This document shows positions 48,347-61,395 of a stretch of 64,000 nt of DNA, piece by piece. The notes under the pieces are model-generated. The model was not told where the DNA came from and ran no database searches. It saw only the letters and a list, made by a program, of their open reading frames with translations. Positions within the stretch are counted from its first letter, which is position 1. Each line of letters starts with the position of its first letter. Source of the DNA: Bacteroidia bacterium (lineage in GTDB: Bacteria; Bacteroidota; Bacteroidia; J057); NCBI GenBank assembly GCA_022760475.1, contig JALEFZ010000055.1:124001-188000 (forward strand), given 5' to 3'. A program made the position numbers and the translations under genes.

Positions 48347-49018
48347 ATGAAAAACTTATTTTTTCTGGTCATCATCATCACCCTCCCTTTGATTGCCTTC
48401 TTCCAATTTCAAAATTGGAGAAAATTCCATCCTCCAAAGGATTATACAGAGGTACCCAGTCAGGAGATTGATCCAAATTATCATGACTCAGAAACAGTCC
48501 TCAATTATTACACTTCTCTTCAACAGGCTGCAACTTATGCCAGATATTGTTGGAAAGAACATAGGGTAGATGTGAGGTCTGACTATCCCGCAGATTCAAA
48601 GAAACAGATCTACCTGAAAACTTATCAGAATTATTTGGGTCACGCCCAAATGCTAAAGCAAAAGCTGATAAATAGTGCTGACTGGAAAAAGCAAGGGTAT
48701 TCCAATGAGGAAATAAAAATTCTCGAATCAGAAGGGGAATTACCATTTGATATAAAGCATCTCCTCACAAATAAGGTAGTGGCAAAAATTGGTGATGAGA
48801 ATCAACTGGTTTATGAGGTTCAAAAGAAACTTGTCAATCAAGGATACACCATGCCAATAGATGGAGTGTTCAAAAGTGAAACTCAAGAGGCACTCAAAAC
48901 ATTTCAAAATGATCAGGAACTTTTTCCCTCTGGAATCTTGGATCGCCTAACCCTTGAAAAATTATATCAGTTGCAAAATCAAGCAGAAACCCAAAAAGAT
49001 AGCCTGGACCAAAATTAA
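48347..49018 (+). CDS. Membrane-anchored peptidoglycan-binding-domain protein
   Basis: A 223-residue protein with an N-terminal membrane helix (FFLVIIITLPLIAFFQF). The C-terminal 70 residues fit a PG_binding_1 domain (LVYEVQKKLVNQGYTMPIDGVF, as VQKKLVNQGY and PIDGVFKSETQEALKTFQ). The middle is helical without recognised domain. It probably binds cell wall from the inner-membrane side. It is divergent from the symporter gene with about 150 bp between. Confidence 0.75.
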   Translation: MKNLFFLVIIITLPLIAFFQFQNWRKFHPPKDYTEVPSQEIDPNYHDSETVLNYYTSLQQAATYARYCWKEHRVDVRSDYPADSKKQIYLKTYQNYLGHAQMLKQKLINSADWKKQGYSNEEIKILESEGELPFDIKHLLTNKVVAKIGDENQLVYEVQKKLVNQGYTMPIDGVFKSETQEALKTFQNDQELFPSGILDRLTLEKLYQLQNQAETQKDSLDQN

Positions 49019-49061
49019 TCTTGATCCAGGCTACAGGAATAAATTCAATTCATCAATGCTT

Positions 49062-49144
49062 AGAGACTAATAAAGTTTAAATTTTTAAACCCGAGTTCTT
49101 GAAGAACAACTCTAATCCAAAAGGATAAATATTTAACAGTCTCT
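49062..49144. repeat. Inverted-repeat element, short copy
   Basis: An 83-bp block with inverted ends AGAGACTAATAAAGTTT and the complement of AGAGACTGTTAAATATTT. Its right half aligns with the right half of the 10806-10964 element (GTTCTTGA, CAACT, AACAGTCTCT shared in order). Like that copy, it ends at the stop codon of a small minus-strand gene. The left half is shorter than in the other copy. Confidence 0.55.
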
Positions 49145-49533
49145 TAATCTTCCACTACATTTACGTCATCAATAAAGTATTTTGTATCTCCCCAAAAAGA
49201 GACTACAAAAAACCTCTCTCTGTAATGTAAGTTGACTGTCTGATTTTTGTCTTGGGCTTCTTTAATTTTCTCTACAATCTCATTATCTCCCGGGTAGATG
49301 GAGAAAAGCCATTTGTCAGCTGAAGCTCCTCCTTCATGTCCACCTTCATTCAATGAACCTTCCCAGGTTTTCCACAGAACTCCTTTTTTACTGAGTTTAG
49401 AAACTTTTCCGGTTCTGTTTCCATCACTGTACGTAGCAAATCTAGCGAAGGACAAGTATCCTGCAAGGATCAGAAGTGAAATAAGGCTTCCGAAAATCAA
49501 AAATCTCAAAAGAAATCGCTTGACTTTATCCAT
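49144..49533 (-). CDS. Small membrane-anchored protein of unknown function
   Basis: A 129-residue protein with one N-terminal membrane helix (FLIFGSLISLLILAGYLSFA). The conserved-looking part is GNRTGKVSKLSKKGVLWKTWEG, here noted as GNRTGKVSKLS and KKGVLWKTWEGSL, then LHYRERFFVVSFWGDTKYFI. I recall such proteins as common in Bacteroidota, sometimes under misleading names; no function is known to me. Its stop codon coincides with the right end of the short inverted-repeat element. Confidence 0.7.
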   Translation of the reverse strand: MDKVKRFLLRFLIFGSLISLLILAGYLSFARFATYSDGNRTGKVSKLSKKGVLWKTWEGSLNEGGHEGGASADKWLFSIYPGDNEIVEKIKEAQDKNQTVNLHYRERFFVVSFWGDTKYFIDDVNVVED

Positions 49534-49652
49534 GGTTATTTTGGTTTAATATCTAAGTTGAATTTTTGTGACGTATTTCTCCTTTAAAGGTACACTTTCC
49601 TTGTAAAGGATCTATGAGGATTTCAAACTTTATTCGTACAAAATTTCATAGC

Positions 49653-50456
49653 ATGCGCCAAAGTATTTTTATTGCCCTTTTTTCCCTTTGCTACCTTTCT
49701 ACTTTTTCTCAAGTCGTCAATACCGAAAAACTTCGTTTGGACCAGCCAGGCAAAAATTTTATCCTGGAGGCTGATATTAACCTTGGCCTGACTTCCAATA
49801 AAGCGGGCGAATCAAGTCGCTATGGTTTTAGGCTAAGGGGAGAATTTGATAAAGGGAAAAACAGACTCTTATTCTTCTCAGGAGGAAATCAGACTAGATT
49901 TGTAGGTAGAAGTGAAGGCTCAGTGGCAAGAAATTTTGTCAACAACCGCTTTGCCCATCTAAGATATAATTATGATTTCAATCCAAGCCTCACTTTGGAA
50001 GCCTTTAGCCAAATTCAAACGGATGAAATTCAGTTAATCAAAAATAGAATTCTATCTGGTACCGGGCTCAGGCTGATGTTGATAAAAAATGATACTGCCA
50101 GCCTATATCTGGGTGCCATCATGATGTTTGAGTATGAAGAAGAATTTAAAGTAAGCGATGAACCCATGCCTACAGAAATTGATATAATAAATCGAGATCC
50201 CAGGGCAAGTTTCTATGTTTCGGCTGCTTATGCATTTACATCTTATTTCAACATCAACCACGTTACTTATTACCAACCCAATGTAACAGACTTTTCGGAT
50301 TTTAGAATTTCCTCAGAAAGTATAGTTACTGTTGCAGTTAGTAAAAAAGTTTCATTTAAGACATATTTGCAATTCATTTATGATTCAAGGCCTCCTGACC
50401 CGGTAGTTCCAAATACAATGTACAGCATCACAACAGGTCTTGGATTTACATTATAA
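49653..50456 (+). CDS. Outer-membrane beta-barrel-like protein (DUF481-like)
   Basis: I start at the ATG at 49653 (267 aa), which opens a signal peptide (SIFIALFSLCYLSTFSQ); 13 residues upstream are doubtful. The mature part is made of amphipathic strands (GFRLRGEFDKGKNRLLFF, LRYNYDFNPSLTLEAFSQI, RLMLIKNDTASLYLGAIMMFEY, ending TTGLGFTL), as in DUF481/YdiY salt-induced outer-membrane proteins. It lies 9 bp upstream of the lysine-ketoglutarate-reductase-like gene, and the two may be one transcript. Function not established. Confidence 0.7.
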   Translation: MRQSIFIALFSLCYLSTFSQVVNTEKLRLDQPGKNFILEADINLGLTSNKAGESSRYGFRLRGEFDKGKNRLLFFSGGNQTRFVGRSEGSVARNFVNNRFAHLRYNYDFNPSLTLEAFSQIQTDEIQLIKNRILSGTGLRLMLIKNDTASLYLGAIMMFEYEEEFKVSDEPMPTEIDIINRDPRASFYVSAAYAFTSYFNINHVTYYQPNVTDFSDFRISSESIVTVAVSKKVSFKTYLQFIYDSRPPDPVVPNTMYSITTGLGFTL

Positions 50457-50465
50457 ACCGCACAA

Positions 50466-51818
50466 ATGAAAAATATCATAGGTATCCGAAGGGAAGACCT
50501 TGACAAAAAAGGAGAACAAAGAGTTGCAATTGTTCCCGAAACCGTACAAGACCTGGCAGAAAAAGGATTCAAATTTATGGTACAGCCGGGAATTCACCCG
50601 GAAACTCAAGAGAAAAAACGAGCCTTCGAAGATTCGGAATACGAAGAAAGTGGAGCAAAAATCACCGAAAAACTCAAAGCTTGTAACATCATCTTCGGAC
50701 TTAAAGAAATAAAAAAGGAACAACTCCTCCCCAATAAAACGTACCTCTTCTTTTCCCATACCCATAAAGGCCAAATCAAAAACAGACCTTTGCTCCAATC
50801 AATGGTTGACAATAATATAACCTTGATTGATTATGAGCTCATAAAACATAAAGAAGGGCAAAGGATCCTAACCTCATTTACCTACTTTGCTGGTTACGCA
50901 GGAATGATAGATAGTCTTTGGTCATTTGGACAAAAACTAAAAACTGAAGGGATTGAGCATCAATTTTCTAAAATTCCTCAATCCATCGAGAAAGGAAATC
51001 TCCAGGAATTGCGAGACCTGATACACCATGTCGGAATTGACATCAGGGAAAATGGAACCCCTCAAAATCTCCCACCATTCATTTGTTGTTTTCTTGGGAA
51101 TGGTAAAACTTCACACGGAGCACAGGAAATTTTTGATATACTCCCTGTCAAAGAAATAAAACTCTCTGAGGTTGCAGAAGTATTCCAAAGTGATAATAGA
51201 AACCATGTATACAAACTGGTTTTGAGAATTTCCGATATGTTCAGAATCAAAAAGGATTCAAAATACTTTGGAGAAACATTTACAGCAAGTGAAAGAAGTG
51301 CCCTTTACCTGAAGGAGCCCCTAGAATTCGAATCAAATCTGGATACAGCATATCCTTATATAAGTATGTTGATGAATTGCATCATTTGGGGACCTGAATT
51401 CCCGAGGCTTTTGAGTAGGGATGATGCAGAAAAATTGTACGAAGATCATAAATTATTAAAAGTAATCGGCGACATCACCTGTGATCCTGAAGGTTCCATA
51501 CAATTTTCAAAAGAGACCTGGATAGACGAACCGGTGTTTACCTATAACCCTTCTAGCAGAATTGAAAAATTTGGCTTCGATGGGGAGGGTATAACCGTAA
51601 TGGCAGTAACCAATTTGCCATGTGAATTCCCGGCAGATGCTTCCGATAGATTCTCAAAAGAATTGGCACCCTACCTCCCTGCTATATTATTAGCCAATTA
51701 TGATGCATCCTCACCCAATGATGCAGGGCTCCCACAAGAAATAGTGGATGCAACCATTTTATGGAAAGGAGAGTTCACCCAAGACTATAAATATATGAGT
51801 GATTTTATAACTAACTGA
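50466..51818 (+). CDS. Lysine-2-oxoglutarate reductase (LKR)-type enzyme
   Basis: A 450-residue protein that resembles the LKR half of the eukaryotic bifunctional alpha-aminoadipic semialdehyde synthase. The N-terminal AlaDh_PNT-like domain has GIRREDLDKKGEQRVAIVPE, KTYLFFSHTHKGQ and LTSFTYFAGYAGMIDSLW; the second part has FLGNGKTSHGAQEI near residue 210, and the end has GDITCDPEGSIQFSKET. LKR condenses lysine with 2-oxoglutarate to saccharopine. The saccharopine dehydrogenase half is not fused and not nearby, so it would have to lie elsewhere. It is the last gene before the 1.3 kb non-coding region. Confidence 0.75.
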   Translation: MKNIIGIRREDLDKKGEQRVAIVPETVQDLAEKGFKFMVQPGIHPETQEKKRAFEDSEYEESGAKITEKLKACNIIFGLKEIKKEQLLPNKTYLFFSHTHKGQIKNRPLLQSMVDNNITLIDYELIKHKEGQRILTSFTYFAGYAGMIDSLWSFGQKLKTEGIEHQFSKIPQSIEKGNLQELRDLIHHVGIDIRENGTPQNLPPFICCFLGNGKTSHGAQEIFDILPVKEIKLSEVAEVFQSDNRNHVYKLVLRISDMFRIKKDSKYFGETFTASERSALYLKEPLEFESNLDTAYPYISMLMNCIIWGPEFPRLLSRDDAEKLYEDHKLLKVIGDITCDPEGSIQFSKETWIDEPVFTYNPSSRIEKFGFDGEGITVMAVTNLPCEFPADASDRFSKELAPYLPAILLANYDASSPNDAGLPQEIVDATILWKGEFTQDYKYMSDFITN

Positions 51819-51857
51819 TAATCAACGTAATTATAAACATTTTGCCATAACCGCATA

Positions 51858-51897
51858 TAATCTCTCATTTTTTTCGTACGAAAAAAATGAGAGATTA
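51858..51897. repeat. Perfect 40-bp palindrome at the left edge of the origin region
   Basis: The left 20 bases are TAATCTCTCATTTTTTTCGT, and the right 20 are their exact reverse complement, with no spacer (centre CGTACG between 51877 and 51878). It lies 39 bp after the LKR-type gene. No T tract follows the hairpin, so it is not a standard terminator, though it may stop transcription before the origin. It could be a protein-binding site or a cruciform. Confidence 0.85.
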
Positions 51898-52682
51898 GCT
51901 TTAAAAGCCTGACTATCAACTATAAAAGAATGAATAAGCTGAGTATACCAGTGATAAATATTCCATTTCATAAGAAATTCACCTTCAAAAAGCCTTCATG
52001 CTCTCTTTATCCAGGCATAACACACATAATTAACTATATAGCTCATTCTTAGGGCTTAAAATAGTCAATTATAGGGCTTGAGAATTCGATATATGACAAG
52101 ACCCTGAGCAGTCATACATGCATTTAATGCTCATGAGGCATGATTTCAGTTTTCCCCAGCCATGTGTACAACTTCATAAATTACTGATTCTCAAATGGCG
52201 ATTTTCCACAATCGTTGTTACCAAATGGTTAAGAAATCACTTAACATTGGGATAACATTAATCCACACCCATGTGGAAATCATGATATTTAGTGGAAAAC
52301 CAAAACTTATCCATAGTCAAGAGGAAAACCCTGCAATTTTACCACAGCCTTATCCACCAACTCAGAAAAAATATTATCAATCCATTGGGTAAAGCAAGTT
52401 CACTGTGGATATGTAGATAAGCTTAAGACAAAAGCATAATAATTCTAACTTTCTACTTTTCGAAATTTATAGCTATCAGAAAGATGAATTTAGTTATAGG
52501 CTTGGTAACCAATGGTTAAAATCTCTCCAAGTAGGACAACTGTGAGAATAGATTACAAATTCAAAAAATCATTTAATCCAATTTTATCCATTATTTGAAC
52601 TTGTGCATAATTCTTAACTTTTATGGAAAAACATTTGAAGCAAGGAAAAACCCAAGAAGTTTTCCCACTTATCCACGCCCCC

Positions 52683-52730
52683 ATTAACTATTATATTATC
52701 TTTTTTTAAAAATATATATTTGAATTATAG
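52683..52730. other. AT-rich block, candidate DNA-unwinding element
   Basis: Only four of 48 bases are G or C; it includes TTTTTTTAAAAATATATATT. It starts five bases after a DnaA-box-like site (52669-52677) on the same side as expected for an origin's melting region. Confidence 0.6.
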
Positions 52731-53131
52731 ATGTGTAAGAAAGTTGATTGACACAGCCTCTTGTCAAAACATGCTCTTACATCCACCTCAAGAAAAATTC
52801 ATGCCCATTTTCCAAAACTGAAATTCAACTTTCCACCAAACCAGTCCTTTTTTCCCCAGGATTGGCTATGTTGAAAAAATCAACTTTACCAGCAATAAGT
52901 TTATATTATCGTTTGAAAATCAATGTGTTTAAAACAAAACCTTTCGTGGAAAAGTAAGTAGATAAGCTGTGGAAAGCGTTGAAAATAAAATTCGGAGGTA
53001 TGGATCAAATACATTTTTCTGTACTTTTATCATCCTTTCTCACAGAAAAAATTGAACTAGCTGTCACTCCTCAGACTTCAGGATTGTTCCTGTTACTTTG
53101 AGGAGCTAAACCTAACTATCTTTATTTTTTG

Positions 53132-54193
53132 ATGAAGCAGATACCTGAAGAATATAAATCAGCATATACATCCATCTCATCGCTGGGTGAGTTTAGATTG
53201 ATTGATCATCTTACAAAAAACATTCCAGCCAAAAGAAGTGAAACGATCAAGGCAATTGGAGATGATGCTGCAGTGGTTGATCTGGGAAATGGGGATGTTG
53301 AAGTTATTTCAACCGACTTACTCGTCGAAAATGTTCATTTTGACTTGAGCTATGTTCCACTCAGGCACCTGGGATATAAGTCCGTCGTGGTGAATATTTC
53401 TGACATCGTGGCCATGAATGCCGAACCAATAGGAATCACCATTTCGTTGGCTGTCAGCAGTAGGTTTTCTGTCGAGGCTTTGGACGAACTCTACGCTGGA
53501 ATCCAACTGGCTTGTGAGAAATACAATGTAGATCTTCTCGGGGGAGACACTTCCAGCATCAATCAGGGAATGGTCATTTCTGTTAGCGCGATTGGAAAGG
53601 GAAAAAAAGATGAGATCGTTTACCGCAACAATGCCAAGGCCAAAGACTTGATTTGTGTAACTGGAGATTTGGGGGCGGCATATGCAGGTTTCCTTGTGTT
53701 GGATAGAGAGAAAGCAGTTTTTCTCAAAACGCCCGATATCCAACCAGACCTTTCAGATTATGACTATGCCATTTCAAGACAATTGAAACCAGAAGCCAGG
53801 TTGGATGTCATCCGTGAAATGAAGGCAAATGGAGTTAAACCTAATTCCATGATTGATATCAGTGACGGCTTGGCAAGCGAGCTCTATCATATTTGCACCC
53901 AAAGCAAAAAAGGCTGTAACATTTATGCGAATAAACTTCCCATAGATTGGCAAGTTGGTAAAGTAGCAGAAGAGTTTGAAATTGGAATCAATACCTTTGC
54001 ATTGAATGGTGGAGAAGACTATGAACTTCTGTTTACAGTTCCCATTGAAGACTTTCAAAAAGTAAAAGATATGAAGGACGTCCATATCATTGGTAATATT
54101 TCTGAAGATGAGCATGTGCTACAAGTACTTCTTGACAGTGGGCAATCAGTAGAATTGGAAGCTCAAGGCTGGTCTCATTTCTCACGTCCTTAA
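53132..54193 (+). CDS. thiL: Thiamine-monophosphate kinase
   Basis: A 353-residue enzyme that phosphorylates thiamine monophosphate to thiamine diphosphate. I start at ATG 53132; a TTG one codon earlier is unlikely. Family motifs are GEFRLIDHL, the Mg/ATP site GDDAAVVDL, VVNISDIVAMNAEPIG, LLGGDTSSI and MIDISDGLASELYHI. Length is normal. It is the first gene right of the putative origin and 11 bp from exonuclease III, so the two are probably cotranscribed. No thiamine riboswitch was recognised upstream. Confidence 0.97.
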   Translation: MKQIPEEYKSAYTSISSLGEFRLIDHLTKNIPAKRSETIKAIGDDAAVVDLGNGDVEVISTDLLVENVHFDLSYVPLRHLGYKSVVVNISDIVAMNAEPIGITISLAVSSRFSVEALDELYAGIQLACEKYNVDLLGGDTSSINQGMVISVSAIGKGKKDEIVYRNNAKAKDLICVTGDLGAAYAGFLVLDREKAVFLKTPDIQPDLSDYDYAISRQLKPEARLDVIREMKANGVKPNSMIDISDGLASELYHICTQSKKGCNIYANKLPIDWQVGKVAEEFEIGINTFALNGGEDYELLFTVPIEDFQKVKDMKDVHIIGNISEDEHVLQVLLDSGQSVELEAQGWSHFSRP

Positions 54194-55201: not shown

Positions 55202-58200
55202 ATGAATCAGCATCATCAAACCCTCGATAAGCGAATTCAGGATTTTCGTCGAAAATATTATACCGACAAAATAATCCGTGGTTCCTTATTGTTGCTTTTA
55301 ATCACTAGCTCAATCCTATTCATTGTATTGCTCAGTGAAGGTATTTTTGGGTTTTCTTCTTCGGTAAGGACCAGTTTTGTTTTCAGCCTGGGTATCCTAT
55401 TCGTTGGTGTATTGGGCTATATGGTTCTTTGGCCAGTTTCCCAGCTAATAAACCTTACAAAGAATATTTCAGATTGGCAAATTGCCAGAATGGTACAGAA
55501 GCATTTTCCTGAGATCAATGATAAGTTGACCAACTTCCTGCAGCTGAAAGAAAAAAGTTTTGAATCAGGAAGCCTTACAGCTGCAGCGATTGACCAAAAA
55601 GCTGAAGAAATTGCTCCAGTTCAATTAAGTCGAGCAATTAATCTGAATCTTAATACAAAATACCTTAGGCTACTACTTATCCCCGCTTTATTATTCATTG
55701 CAACATATATCATAAATCCTGGACTCATTACAAGGAGTACAGCCCACCTCATAAATTATGATCAGGAATTTATTCCACCTCCTCCTTTTGAGATTTCTTT
55801 GAAAGATATTCCAAAAGAGATTGTAGCCGGAGAAGATCTCAAACTTGATATTTCTGTTACAGGAGATCAATTACCCAGTGAGCTTTTTGTGTATCTAAAG
55901 AATGATGAAGATCCACAATCTGAGTTTATTGACTATAGCCTAAAGAAGAATACTGCAACTTCATTTGAATACACACTGACTGAAATAAAGAATGATTTTA
56001 CCTTCTTTATTGGAAATCCCGAGTCCAAATCTGAAGAGTTCAAAATAAAAGTTCTTAAAAGACCTTATATAAAGAACTTTGCAATAACCATTCAATACCC
56101 AGCTTATACAGGTCTCGCTCCTGAGAAACTCGCTGATAATGTTGGAGATTTTAAAGCACTCAAGGGATCAAGGATTTCCTGGAAAATGGAGCCACATGGA
56201 GATATCCAGTCTGCGAGTTTGGTTGAAATTGGTGCAGGAAAGTTTGACTTCACCCAATCTGAAGATGGAAACTTATTTAAGGCATCAAAAAGACTGATGA
56301 AGGATTTGAATTATATCATTCAGTTAAATGGAAATTCAGATATTTCGAATATTGATACGGTGAAATACTCGGCTGGAATTGTTCCGGATCGTTACCCATC
56401 TATTTATGTATTCTCCCCTAACAATGATTTTCTGGTTGACTTGGATCCTGTCATGCCACTGGAACTTGAAGTTGCTGATGACTTTGGCTTCTCGAATCTT
56501 CAGCTAATGTATAGGTTTGTAAAATCTGGTGGGACGAGTTCTGTATCAGAGGAATTCAAATCATATAATCTAGGCTTTGATAAGAAGGTGCTTCTACAAC
56601 AAATGGGATATCAAATTGATCTGACCAGCCTTGGCCTTAGCGAGGGGGATGAATTAGAATACTTTATTAAGGTCTGGGACAATGATGGAGTTTCCGGCCC
56701 AAAGGCTTCAATTAGTGCAACCTATAAAGCAATATATCCTACACTGGATGCCAGATATGATGAAGTATCTCAGCAACAGGATGAAGTCAAGAATGATTTG
56801 AAAAAACTCAAAGAGAATTCTAAGTCTTTAAAAGAATCCTATAAGAAGATGCAGGAGAAACTCTTGAGCCAAAAGAAACTTTCCTTTGATGACAAAAAGG
56901 AACTTCAAAGAATGATCGAAGAGCAGAAAGAGATCATGAAGAAGTTGGAAGAGGCACAGGAGAAGTTTGAAGACGCCAAAAACAAACTTGAGGATAATCA
57001 GATGATTTCTGAGCAGACTCTTCAAAAGTATGAGGAACTCAATAAGTTTATGGAGGAGTTAGAAAATCCTGAGTTAGAGGAAATGTTGAAGGAGTTGGAA
57101 GAAAGAATGGAAGATCTGGATACCAAGTCCCTTATGGAGAAGATGGAAGACCTCGAGATGAAGGATGAAGATATTCAGAAGAGCCTAGAGAGAACCCTCG
57201 AACTTCTTAAGCAATTGGAAGTACAAGAAAAAATTGATGAAGTAAGAAATAAACTCGATAGGCTTGCTGCTAAACAGCAGGTTCTGGAAGAGAAAACCGA
57301 GGAAGCCAAGACTACAGAAGAACTAGAAAACATCAAAGATCGCCAGGAGAACCTCAATGACCAGATGGATGAAATTCAAAAGGACCTAGATGAATTGAGT
57401 GAGAAGAAAGAGGATACAAAAACTCCTGATTCTGAGAAGATGGATGACATTAAGGAGAAAGGTGAGGAGACAAAAGAAAAAATGGATAATGCTTCTGAGA
57501 GTATGGAAAATTCCAAAAAAGAAATGGAAGACGGGAGCAGGAAGAGTAAGAAGTCTTCTTCTGAAAATAAAAAGAAAGCAAGCCAATCTCAGAAACAGGC
57601 TGAGCAGAAAATGCGAGAGATGTCTGATGAATTAAGCCAGATGCAAATGGACATGCAATCTCAGCAGAATGAACAGAACCTTGAAGATCTGAGAGAACTG
57701 TTGGAGAACTTATTGAAACTTTCTTTTGACCAAGAGGATCTGAGAAATGAAGTAGCGGAGTTAAAGTATGGAGATCCCGCTCTAAAAGACAAAAGTCAAA
57801 AGCAAAAGAGTTTGGAGGACGATATGGAATTGGTTCGTGATAGCCTTGAAGCTCTGGCAAATAGGGTATTTGAAATACAGAAATTTGTTCTAGATGAGAG
57901 CAAATCCATTACAGAAAACATGGATAAGTCTCAGATTTTCTTCAGGAGTAAGAGGGTTGATTTCATCAAGAAGTATCAGCAAGAGGCCATGACTGGCATC
58001 AATAACCTTGCGAATATGCTTTCCGAAGTGATGAAACAAATGCAGCAAAATATGATGAGCCAGATGCAAGGCAATTCTATGTGCAACAAACCCAATGGCA
58101 AAAAGCCAAACATGAAGGGTATAGGACAAAAGCAACAACAACTGAATCAGCAAATGCAGAACATGATGAAGATGGGAAAAATGAATCCTTCTCAGCTGCA

Positions 58201-58618
58201 GGAAATGGCTGCTAGACAAGAGGCTATCCGTAAACAACTGAAAGAGGCTATGAATCAAATGAAAGGCCAGAATGGTAAGCCTCTTGGAGATATGGAAAAA
58301 GTCATGAAAGATATGATTCAGTCAGAGACAGACCTGGTAAATAAGCAGCTTACTGCAGAGACAATGAAACGCCAGAGACAAATTTTGAGTAGACTTCTTC
58401 AGGCCGATCGCTCTGTGAGAGAACGTGAACTTGATGATAAGAGGGAATCCAGAACCGCTAAAAACCTGGATAAAAAGTCTCCTGAAGAACTTTCTCTAGA
58501 AGAATATAAAAATAAAATCAGGCAGGAATTACTAAAAACTAATAAGTTGGAATATTCCACTGATTTCCTCATCTTGATTGAGCAATACTTTAAAAAGTTA
58601 GAAACTGCGAATGAGTAG
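55202..58618 (+). CDS. Large coiled-coil membrane protein, DUF4175-like
   Basis: A 1138-residue protein. Two membrane helices lie at about 25-50 and 55-80, a third near 152-170 (LRLLLIPALLFIATYIIN). A beta-rich extracytoplasmic region with Ig-like modules follows (about 190-515; PPPFEISLKDIPKEIVAGEDL, as PPPFEISLKDIP, then IQYPAYTGLAPE). Then come a long Glu/Lys-rich coiled coil (about 520-860) and a Met/Gln-rich stretch (about 930-1040; MQQNMMSQMQGNSMC). This layout is that of DUF4175 proteins of Bacteroidota, whose function is unknown to me. It overlaps the RsbW-like gene by 8 bp, so the two are translationally coupled. Confidence 0.8.
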   Translation: MNQHHQTLDKRIQDFRRKYYTDKIIRGSLLLLLITSSILFIVLLSEGIFGFSSSVRTSFVFSLGILFVGVLGYMVLWPVSQLINLTKNISDWQIARMVQKHFPEINDKLTNFLQLKEKSFESGSLTAAAIDQKAEEIAPVQLSRAINLNLNTKYLRLLLIPALLFIATYIINPGLITRSTAHLINYDQEFIPPPPFEISLKDIPKEIVAGEDLKLDISVTGDQLPSELFVYLKNDEDPQSEFIDYSLKKNTATSFEYTLTEIKNDFTFFIGNPESKSEEFKIKVLKRPYIKNFAITIQYPAYTGLAPEKLADNVGDFKALKGSRISWKMEPHGDIQSASLVEIGAGKFDFTQSEDGNLFKASKRLMKDLNYIIQLNGNSDISNIDTVKYSAGIVPDRYPSIYVFSPNNDFLVDLDPVMPLELEVADDFGFSNLQLMYRFVKSGGTSSVSEEFKSYNLGFDKKVLLQQMGYQIDLTSLGLSEGDELEYFIKVWDNDGVSGPKASISATYKAIYPTLDARYDEVSQQQDEVKNDLKKLKENSKSLKESYKKMQEKLLSQKKLSFDDKKELQRMIEEQKEIMKKLEEAQEKFEDAKNKLEDNQMISEQTLQKYEELNKFMEELENPELEEMLKELEERMEDLDTKSLMEKMEDLEMKDEDIQKSLERTLELLKQLEVQEKIDEVRNKLDRLAAKQQVLEEKTEEAKTTEELENIKDRQENLNDQMDEIQKDLDELSEKKEDTKTPDSEKMDDIKEKGEETKEKMDNASESMENSKKEMEDGSRKSKKSSSENKKKASQSQKQAEQKMREMSDELSQMQMDMQSQQNEQNLEDLRELLENLLKLSFDQEDLRNEVAELKYGDPALKDKSQKQKSLEDDMELVRDSLEALANRVFEIQKFVLDESKSITENMDKSQIFFRSKRVDFIKKYQQEAMTGINNLANMLSEVMKQMQQNMMSQMQGNSMCNKPNGKKPNMKGIGQKQQQLNQQMQNMMKMGKMNPSQLQEMAARQEAIRKQLKEAMNQMKGQNGKPLGDMEKVMKDMIQSETDLVNKQLTAETMKRQRQILSRLLQADRSVRERELDDKRESRTAKNLDKKSPEELSLEEYKNKIRQELLKTNKLEYSTDFLILIEQYFKKLETANE

Positions 58619-59458: not shown

Positions 59459-59474
59459 TGTTCCACGTGGAACA
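59459..59474. other. parS-like site 1
   Basis: TGTTCCACGTGGAACA is a perfect 16-bp palindrome. It matches the ParB/Spo0J-binding parS consensus TGTTTCACGTGAAACA at 14 of 16 positions, with C and G at the two inner variable positions. The symmetry extends to 28 bp (59453-59480), starting within the ybeY stop region. It follows the end of ybeY directly. Confidence 0.8.
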
Positions 59475-59497
59475 TTAGAATGTTGTATTCGTTTATA

Positions 59498-59513
59498 TGT
59501 TCCACGTGGAACA
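59498..59513. other. parS-like site 2
   Basis: A second exact copy of TGTTCCACGTGGAACA. Its centre is 39 bp from that of the first, and it ends 19 bp before the mnmG start codon. No third copy was seen in the window. Two identical parS-like sites in a 55-bp span, 6.4 kb from the putative origin, fit an origin-proximal centromere. parA and parB are not in the window. Confidence 0.8.
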
Positions 59514-59532: not shown

Positions 59533-61395
59533 ATGTTTAATGAGTATGATGTGATTGTAGTTGGGGCAGGGCATGCCGGTTGCGAAGCTGCTGCCGCTGC
59601 TGCTAATATGGGTTTGAATGTTATGCTGGCAACAATGAATATGGGCACCATCGCCCAAATGAGTTGTAATCCTGCGATGGGTGGAGTTGCAAAAGGTCAA
59701 TTGGTAAGAGAAATAGATGCTTTAGGTGGATACTCCGGTATTGTTACCGATGAGACCATGATCCAATTTAGGATGCTCAATCGTTCTAAGGGGCCTGCAA
59801 TGTGGAGCCCTAGGGCTCAAAGCGATAGAATGAGATTTGCTGAGAAGTGGAGACTTCTACTTGAAGAAACTCCAAACGTAGACTTTTGGCAAGAAATGAT
59901 TGTTGGATTAGTGGTAAAAGATGGTCGTGTAACGGGAGTAAAGACTCAGTTGGGCCTGGAAATTCCTTCCAAGACTGTCGTATTAACCAATGGTACTTTC
60001 CTAAACGGACTAATTCATATCGGAGAAAAACAGTTTGGAGGAGGGCGAAGTGGAGAAAGAGCATCAATTGGGATTACAGCTCAACTTAATGAACTGGGAT
60101 TCGAAAGTGGTAGGATGAAAACTGGAACTCCTCCAAGATTAGATGGGAGATCTATTGCTTGGGAAAGGACAGAAGAGCAAGCTGGAGATGAGAATCCTGG
60201 AAAGTTCTCCTTCTCAGATACCAAACCTTTGGCGGTTCAAAGACCCTGTCATATTACCTATACAAATCCATTAACTCATGAAGTGTTAAAAGAAGGCTTT
60301 GATAGGAGCCCAATGTTTAATGGGAGGATTAAAGGACTTGGGCCAAGATATTGTCCTTCAATTGAGGATAAAATTAATCGATTTGCGGATAGAGAAAGGC
60401 ATCAATTATTTTTGGAGCCTGAAGGATGGAATACAATAGAAGTTTATGTGAATGGTTTTTCTTCTTCTCTTCCAGAAGATGTTCAGCTGAAAGCCATTCG
60501 GACTGTGCCTGGTCTTGAAAAAGTTAAAATGTTCCGTCCAGGCTACGCGGTTGAATATGATTTCTTCCCTCCTACTCAACTTAAATTAAGCCTTGAAACA
60601 CAGCTAGTCGAAAACCTATTCTTTGCTGGTCAGATCAATGGAACTACTGGATATGAAGAAGCTGCGAGTCAGGGTTTGATAGCTGGAATAAATGCAGGCT
60701 TAAGGGTAAAAGAGGAAGAGCCCTTTATCCTAAAAAGAGATGAAGCATATATCGGTGTTTTGGTTGATGATTTGGTAAATAAAGGGACCAAGGAACCTTA
60801 CAGAATGTTTACATCAAGGGCAGAATATCGAACTTTATTAAGACAAGATAATGCAGACCTTCGCCTTACTCATCTTGGGTATAAGATTGGAACTGTATCT
60901 GAGGAACGCCACAGTCAGATGCTGAATAAAAAATCTAAAGTCGAAAGCCTAATTAAGCTCATTAATGAAACTAGTATTCGTCCTGAAGAAGTCAATACTT
61001 ACTTAACTGGAAAAGGTACTTCCGCACTCAAACAAGGAGTAAAAGCTAAAAGCATACTTACAAGGCCTGAGGTGAAATTAAATGAGTTGATAGGGAATAC
61101 CTCTCTTCGTGAATTGATTGGTGAAGGTTTTGATGAAGAGATTAGGTCACAGGCGGAAATCCAGATTAAGTATTCTGGCTATATAAAAAAGGAACAAGAA
61201 TTAGCGTCCAAGATGATGAGGCTGGATGAAATTTTAATCCCAGAGAAATTCGACTTTTCTTCTTTAACTTCTCTTTCTTCCGAAGGAAGGGAAAAGCTAA
61301 ATTCCCATAAACCAGGAAGTTTGGGACAAGCCTCCAGAATCAGTGGAGTTAGTCCTGCAGATATATCGGTCTTAATGGTATACATGGGGAGGTGA
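59533..61395 (+). CDS. mnmG: tRNA uridine-5-carboxymethylaminomethyl modification enzyme MnmG (GidA)
   Basis: A 620-residue FAD enzyme that works with MnmE to make cmnm5U at the wobble position of certain tRNAs. The FAD-binding motif is VIVVGAGHAGCEAAAAAA; CNPAMGGVAKGQLVREIDAL and GTFLNGLIHIGEKQFGGGRSG are family signatures. The C-terminal FTSRAEYRTLLRQDNADLRL is the typical tRNA-binding segment. The gene is full length, and the two parS-like palindromes lie in its upstream region. In many bacteria gidA is next to the chromosome origin. Confidence 0.98.
   Translation: MFNEYDVIVVGAGHAGCEAAAAAANMGLNVMLATMNMGTIAQMSCNPAMGGVAKGQLVREIDALGGYSGIVTDETMIQFRMLNRSKGPAMWSPRAQSDRMRFAEKWRLLLEETPNVDFWQEMIVGLVVKDGRVTGVKTQLGLEIPSKTVVLTNGTFLNGLIHIGEKQFGGGRSGERASIGITAQLNELGFESGRMKTGTPPRLDGRSIAWERTEEQAGDENPGKFSFSDTKPLAVQRPCHITYTNPLTHEVLKEGFDRSPMFNGRIKGLGPRYCPSIEDKINRFADRERHQLFLEPEGWNTIEVYVNGFSSSLPEDVQLKAIRTVPGLEKVKMFRPGYAVEYDFFPPTQLKLSLETQLVENLFFAGQINGTTGYEEAASQGLIAGINAGLRVKEEEPFILKRDEAYIGVLVDDLVNKGTKEPYRMFTSRAEYRTLLRQDNADLRLTHLGYKIGTVSEERHSQMLNKKSKVESLIKLINETSIRPEEVNTYLTGKGTSALKQGVKAKSILTRPEVKLNELIGNTSLRELIGEGFDEEIRSQAEIQIKYSGYIKKEQELASKMMRLDEILIPEKFDFSSLTSLSSEGREKLNSHKPGSLGQASRISGVSPADISVLMVYMGR

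Follow-up and report, generated by a model that had tools for sequence, protein, structure and literature searches.

The DNA analysed here, referred to as the window, is a stretch of 64 kb that corresponds to bases 124001–188000 of contig C13 (515,857 bp) in the draft Bacteroidota genome G000, which comprises 6.86 Mb in 96 contigs. The initial annotation described a sole long non-coding stretch in the window, and this holds, since the gap without an ORF of at least 100 aa at 51819–53128 measures 1310 bp and the runner-up 226 bp. No Rfam RNA was found in the 64-kb window. The region and its flanks contain the following features:

50466–51818, plus strand: left-flanking gene with an AlaDH/PNT domain, from a domain match
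51819–53131, no strand: putative oriC region without ORF, 1.3 kb, 32% GC
51858–51897, no strand: perfect inverted repeat of 20 bp, which separates the last left-hand gene from the DnaA boxes
53132–54193, plus strand: thiL, thiamine-phosphate kinase (TIGR01379), right flank of the putative origin, conserved in the family
59533–61395, plus strand: mnmG (gidA), adjoining the parS pair on the right, 6.4 kb right of the region

The product of the left-flanking gene can be read as saccharopine-dehydrogenase-like, the enzyme name being an interpretation, and the inverted repeat behind this gene is probably its transcription terminator, located outside the box cluster. The flanking genes had been described as transcribed away from the region, which is true of the right side, from thiL onward, but not of the left, where three plus-strand genes (48347–51818) point at it. 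On a larger scale, the minus strand predominates on the left side (31.0 kb versus 16.8 kb on the plus strand) and the plus strand on the right (8.9 versus 1.4 kb). The flank includes the chromosomal housekeeping genes thiL, xth, ybeY, and mnmG, and the named relatives retrieved with ThiL are nearly all Bacteroidota among the matches listed. The stretch 55202–58618, adjoining an RsbW-like gene, encodes a protein of 1138 aa. Its match to DUF4175 is marginal, scoring under the curated cut-off, and its C-terminal part is long, rich in Q/M/K, and coiled-coil-like.

As the initial annotation had stated, dnaA is not adjacent to the region and is located on another contig, C28. The encoded DnaA, 478 aa long and complete, has a GGRDHSTVIHA-type segment close to its C-terminus, from which binding to TTATCCACA-type boxes is presumably to be expected. 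The dnaA locus was ruled out as a rival origin, since a single weak box lies within 1.5 kb of it. The warning that a dnaA-based annotation could miss the origin is fair, but origins away from dnaA have already been described as common in Bacteroidetes (PMC4755523), and, because such origins occur, Ori-Finder scores lineage-specific indicator genes (PMC10225481). In a literature search, no paper linking thiL and oriC was found.

The DnaA boxes and the conserved core within the region are as follows:

52202–52210, plus strand: DnaA box TTTTCCACA, one-mismatch scan
52259–52267, plus strand: DnaA box TAATCCACA, one-mismatch scan
52307–52315, plus strand: DnaA box TTATCCATA, one-mismatch scan
52350–52358, plus strand: DnaA box TTATCCACC, one-mismatch scan
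52404–52412, minus strand: DnaA box ATATCCACA, one-mismatch scan
52412–52420, minus strand: DnaA box TTATCTACA, sharing one base with the box at 52404–52412
52602–52610, minus strand: DnaA box TTATGCACA, one-mismatch scan
52654–52732, plus strand: conserved core of tandem boxes, spacer, and AT-rich element, from alignment and matrix
52660–52668, plus strand: degenerate box TTTTCCCAC, partner of the core box and abutting it; G001, G002, and G005 have a TTATCC-type box here
52669–52677, plus strand: core DnaA box TTATCCACG, from the one-mismatch scan and alignment
52678–52683, plus strand: C-rich spacer CCCCCA, of the form GCxCCA in several relatives
52682–52732, no strand: AT-rich block, where the AT-richest 48-mers of the window lie
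52690–52698, plus strand: ATT-ATA-TTA, three DnaA-trio-like triplets 12 nt past the core box, which read NAN on the opposite strand

The region contains eight 9-mers with exactly one mismatch to TTATCCACA and no zero-mismatch copy, in agreement with the eight boxes of at most one mismatch counted initially, while 500 dinucleotide shuffles of the region yielded a mean of 0.51 boxes and a maximum of 4. A DnaA-box cluster above chance, as sought in a bacterial chromosomal oriC, is thus present. Its density is unmatched by any other 1.3-kb window of the 64 kb, and the maximum elsewhere was 5 per kb in 60 other genome pieces (1.2 Mb), two of which overlap the window ends and none the region. The box at 52602–52610 had been singled out as a full fit to TTATNCACA, and it is one because its minus strand reads TTATGCACA. 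The absence of any exact TTATCCACA copy from the region counts against an origin, with 65 such copies elsewhere in the genome, not far above the 48 of a reversed-pattern control. Two TTGTTACCAAATGGTTAA-type copies (52215–52232 and 52502–52519), 83% alike and each with a near-palindrome, also lie within the region and could be a site for another protein or a product of chance.

An AT-rich 48-base block beside a box had likewise been reported, and it proves to be the AT-richest 48-mer of the 64 kb, with four G/C, starts at 52682–52685, and a distance of 5 bp from the box at 52669–52677. The AT-rich block at 52682–52732 is the probable DNA unwinding element, placed beside boxes as in other bacterial origins. 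A trio rule allows a spacer of up to 16 nt between a DnaA box and a run of three or more NAN triplets; the core box has three triplets after a spacer of 12. The triplet register is less regular here than in relatives, where the aligned place contains three to seven triplets. Since 7 of 25 boxes (28%) elsewhere in the window also pass the rule, the support from trios comes from the aligned relatives. In all nine genomes with an aligned core the order is the same: an A-rich stretch, a TTWTCC-type box, a second box (mostly TTATCCACR), a GCxCC-like spacer, ATTA-type triplets, and an AT-rich run.

With a matrix trained without G000, the 41-base start of the core scores 39.6 bits, whereas elsewhere, in 1.2 Mb of G000 DNA, the highest score is 23.6 bits; this second match sits inside a gene and was dismissed as chance. 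Leave-one-out matrices recovered eight of the nine family cores at 20–41 bits, the core of G006 not rising above background, in line with a conserved module of box, spacer, and triplets as in the basal unwinding system (BUS). The core model, built from sequence only, finds exactly one strong match per genome in the nine, which are its training sequences (E 1e-10 to 1e-16). The next match in G000 reaches 15.1 bits among the best 150 candidates scored per genome, to which the uniqueness of the core in G000 is therefore limited. Outside the training set, G017 has a core match 1 kb upstream of thiL (E 1.4e-6), and a weaker one in G015 (E 0.0145) is also upstream of thiL.

A putative centromere lies to the right of thiL, between ybeY and mnmG, 6.7 kb from the putative origin:

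59459–59474, no strand: parS site TGTTCCACGTGGAACA, perfect 16-mer
59498–59513, no strand: parS site TGTTCCACGTGGAACA, perfect 16-mer

The palindrome GTTCCACGTGGAAC, the 14-mer core of parS, has exactly two perfect copies in the 6.86 Mb, both of them full 16-mers at 59459–59513. The spacing is conserved in G001, G002, G003, G004, G005, G006, and G010, whose perfect parS sites also sit towards thiL, at about 6–9 kb from the core, while in G007 parS and core are on different contigs. Palindromes of parS are thus found near the putative origin, as in an oriC-proximal centromere, and parS is usually close to the origin (PMC7333895).

Cumulative GC skew, which the initial annotation had proposed to follow over the whole genome, was computed in part. 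The skew data of G000 come from 320 kb of C13 plus sampled stretches, about 1.2 Mb of genome having been read, and over the contiguous C13:1–320000 the minimum falls at window position 53181, just inside thiL and 50 bp from the region. As G000 is divided into 96 contigs, the whole-chromosome test was carried out on G003, a near-complete family relative with a main contig of 7.54 Mb, of which 47 segments of 20 kb were sampled. Skew is negative in all 23 segments between 190 kb and 3.76 Mb and positive in all 23 between 3.78 and 7.24 Mb, with a value of +0.006 for the segment at base 1, so that the two-arm skew flips at the same gene neighbourhood. The fine minimum of G003 (3,787,707) is 296 bp before the thiL start (3,788,003), with 10 boxes in that kb, and G005 and G002 show a local minimum at most 1.6 kb from the thiL start. 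In nine other large contigs of G000, box clusters do not exceed 5 per kb and skew is low or mixed in some, and no switch as sharp as that of C13 was found in the sampled segments. The region is thus located at a GC-skew minimum, as bacterial oriC are, within 320 kb of its own contig and at the sampled switch of G003.

Bacteria possess DnaA-box clusters that are not origins, and the assignment of oriC made here is drawn from sequence; the region might accordingly be a cluster of boxes that titrates DnaA or serves regulation (datA/DARS-like), or a promoter region near thiL under DnaA control, the true origin lying elsewhere. Such a site would leave unexplained the skew minimum of C13, the whole-chromosome switch of G003, the AT-rich element beside tandem boxes, and the parS pair, and we regard it as very improbable.

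A DNA search with the whole region gave few matches, two of them in family members, about 50 bp each and upstream of thiL with differing left flanks; thiL was thus recognised as a marker. The left neighbour gene was tried as an origin marker and dropped, no box cluster adjoining it in relatives. Directly upstream of thiL, 5–13 one-mismatch boxes occur in 9 of 12 family genomes with thiL. The three genomes of genus g9 have 0–1 boxes there, which counts against the oriC reading. Of 18 genomes from the order or class, most have 0–2, the order member G015 having 5. The named genomes listed include at least one clear family relative, HKST-UBA03, whose core is identical to that of G004 over the 41 bases compared. 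Rearrangements can alter skew, and G000 is a draft assembly, so the minimum might reflect a local inversion or a horizontally acquired segment, and the boxes chance or the origin of an integrated plasmid. Nevertheless, three relatives have their skew switch at this same gene neighbourhood, nine genomes share the conserved core, and the flanks are chromosomal housekeeping genes (above), which makes this reading even less credible than a titration site.

The region 51819–53131 is thus very probably the chromosomal oriC of this Bacteroidota genome. This interpretation, already proposed in the initial annotation, is supported by the skew minimum, the switch in G003, the boxes and core upstream of thiL, and the nearby parS. 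Core conservation and the origin-proximal parS had not been foreseen and agree with it. The origin is very probably of the ordinary bacterial type, far from dnaA as is usual in the phylum, with a core recognisable in most relatives. DnaA encoded on C28 would fill the box array at 52202–52420, and a filament of ATP-bound DnaA would run rightwards from the core boxes (52660–52677) onto one strand of the AT-rich block. This block would then melt, the helicase would be loaded, and two forks would start, while ParB on the two parS sites would separate the freshly copied origins.

In BUS, DnaA boxes are often in tandem, and a GC-rich gap and then triplets follow, in which the middle A is conserved on the DnaA-held strand (PMC8287927). 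The present origin resembles this Bacillus subtilis type (PMC8287927) in its tandem boxes, short GC-rich spacer, middle-A triplets, and AT-rich melting region, but it is not beside dnaA and its outer partner box is degenerate; moreover, the triplets of G000 number only three and begin 12 nt past the box, against four to seven beginning at 6 nt in several relatives. Like the predicted oriC of Prevotella intermedia OMA14 chromosome I and those of other Bacteroidetes (PMC4755523), it has its DnaA boxes clustered where the skew switches and is remote from dnaA, the neighbours on the present side being thiL, mnmG, and the AlaDH/PNT-domain gene. Escherichia coli oriC also combines a box array with an AT-rich element and has mnmG (gidA) in its neighbourhood, although here mnmG is not adjacent. 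New are the core itself, located exactly, its conservation, and, for this family, the thiL-ybeY-parS-mnmG neighbourhood, while the general picture of bacterial initiation is unchanged. For a family in which dnaA is no reliable guide to the origin, they provide a candidate resolved to the base. The searchable core marks the origin in draft genomes and could help to build plasmids that replicate in such bacteria and to estimate growth rates from metagenome coverage. In Cytophaga hutchinsonii, replicating oriC plasmids have reportedly been used.

At the class level, core-model matches are weak and about half are without a box cluster. Other families of the class also have box clusters that the model matches, namely L319 (G036:C11, near 130–1600), L323 (G095:C1), and L320 (G113:C2), and near-perfect parS sites are 1.3 kb from the match in G036; thus, the core may mark origins beyond the family. 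A bolder and rather doubtful proposal is that the family has a fixed unwinding module of nearly 40 bases (an abutting degenerate and good box, a GCxCCA spacer, and TTA-type triplets), that the triplets have slipped out of register in this species, so that melting may depend more on the AT-rich block than on DnaA-trios, and that the origin can leave thiL, as genus g9 suggests. In a genome of this genus, the intergenic stretch G012:C68 1413–1969 (L306), between aminotransferase-like and glycosidase-like genes, contains about 18 DnaA boxes in 560 bp and is a candidate for a relocated origin.
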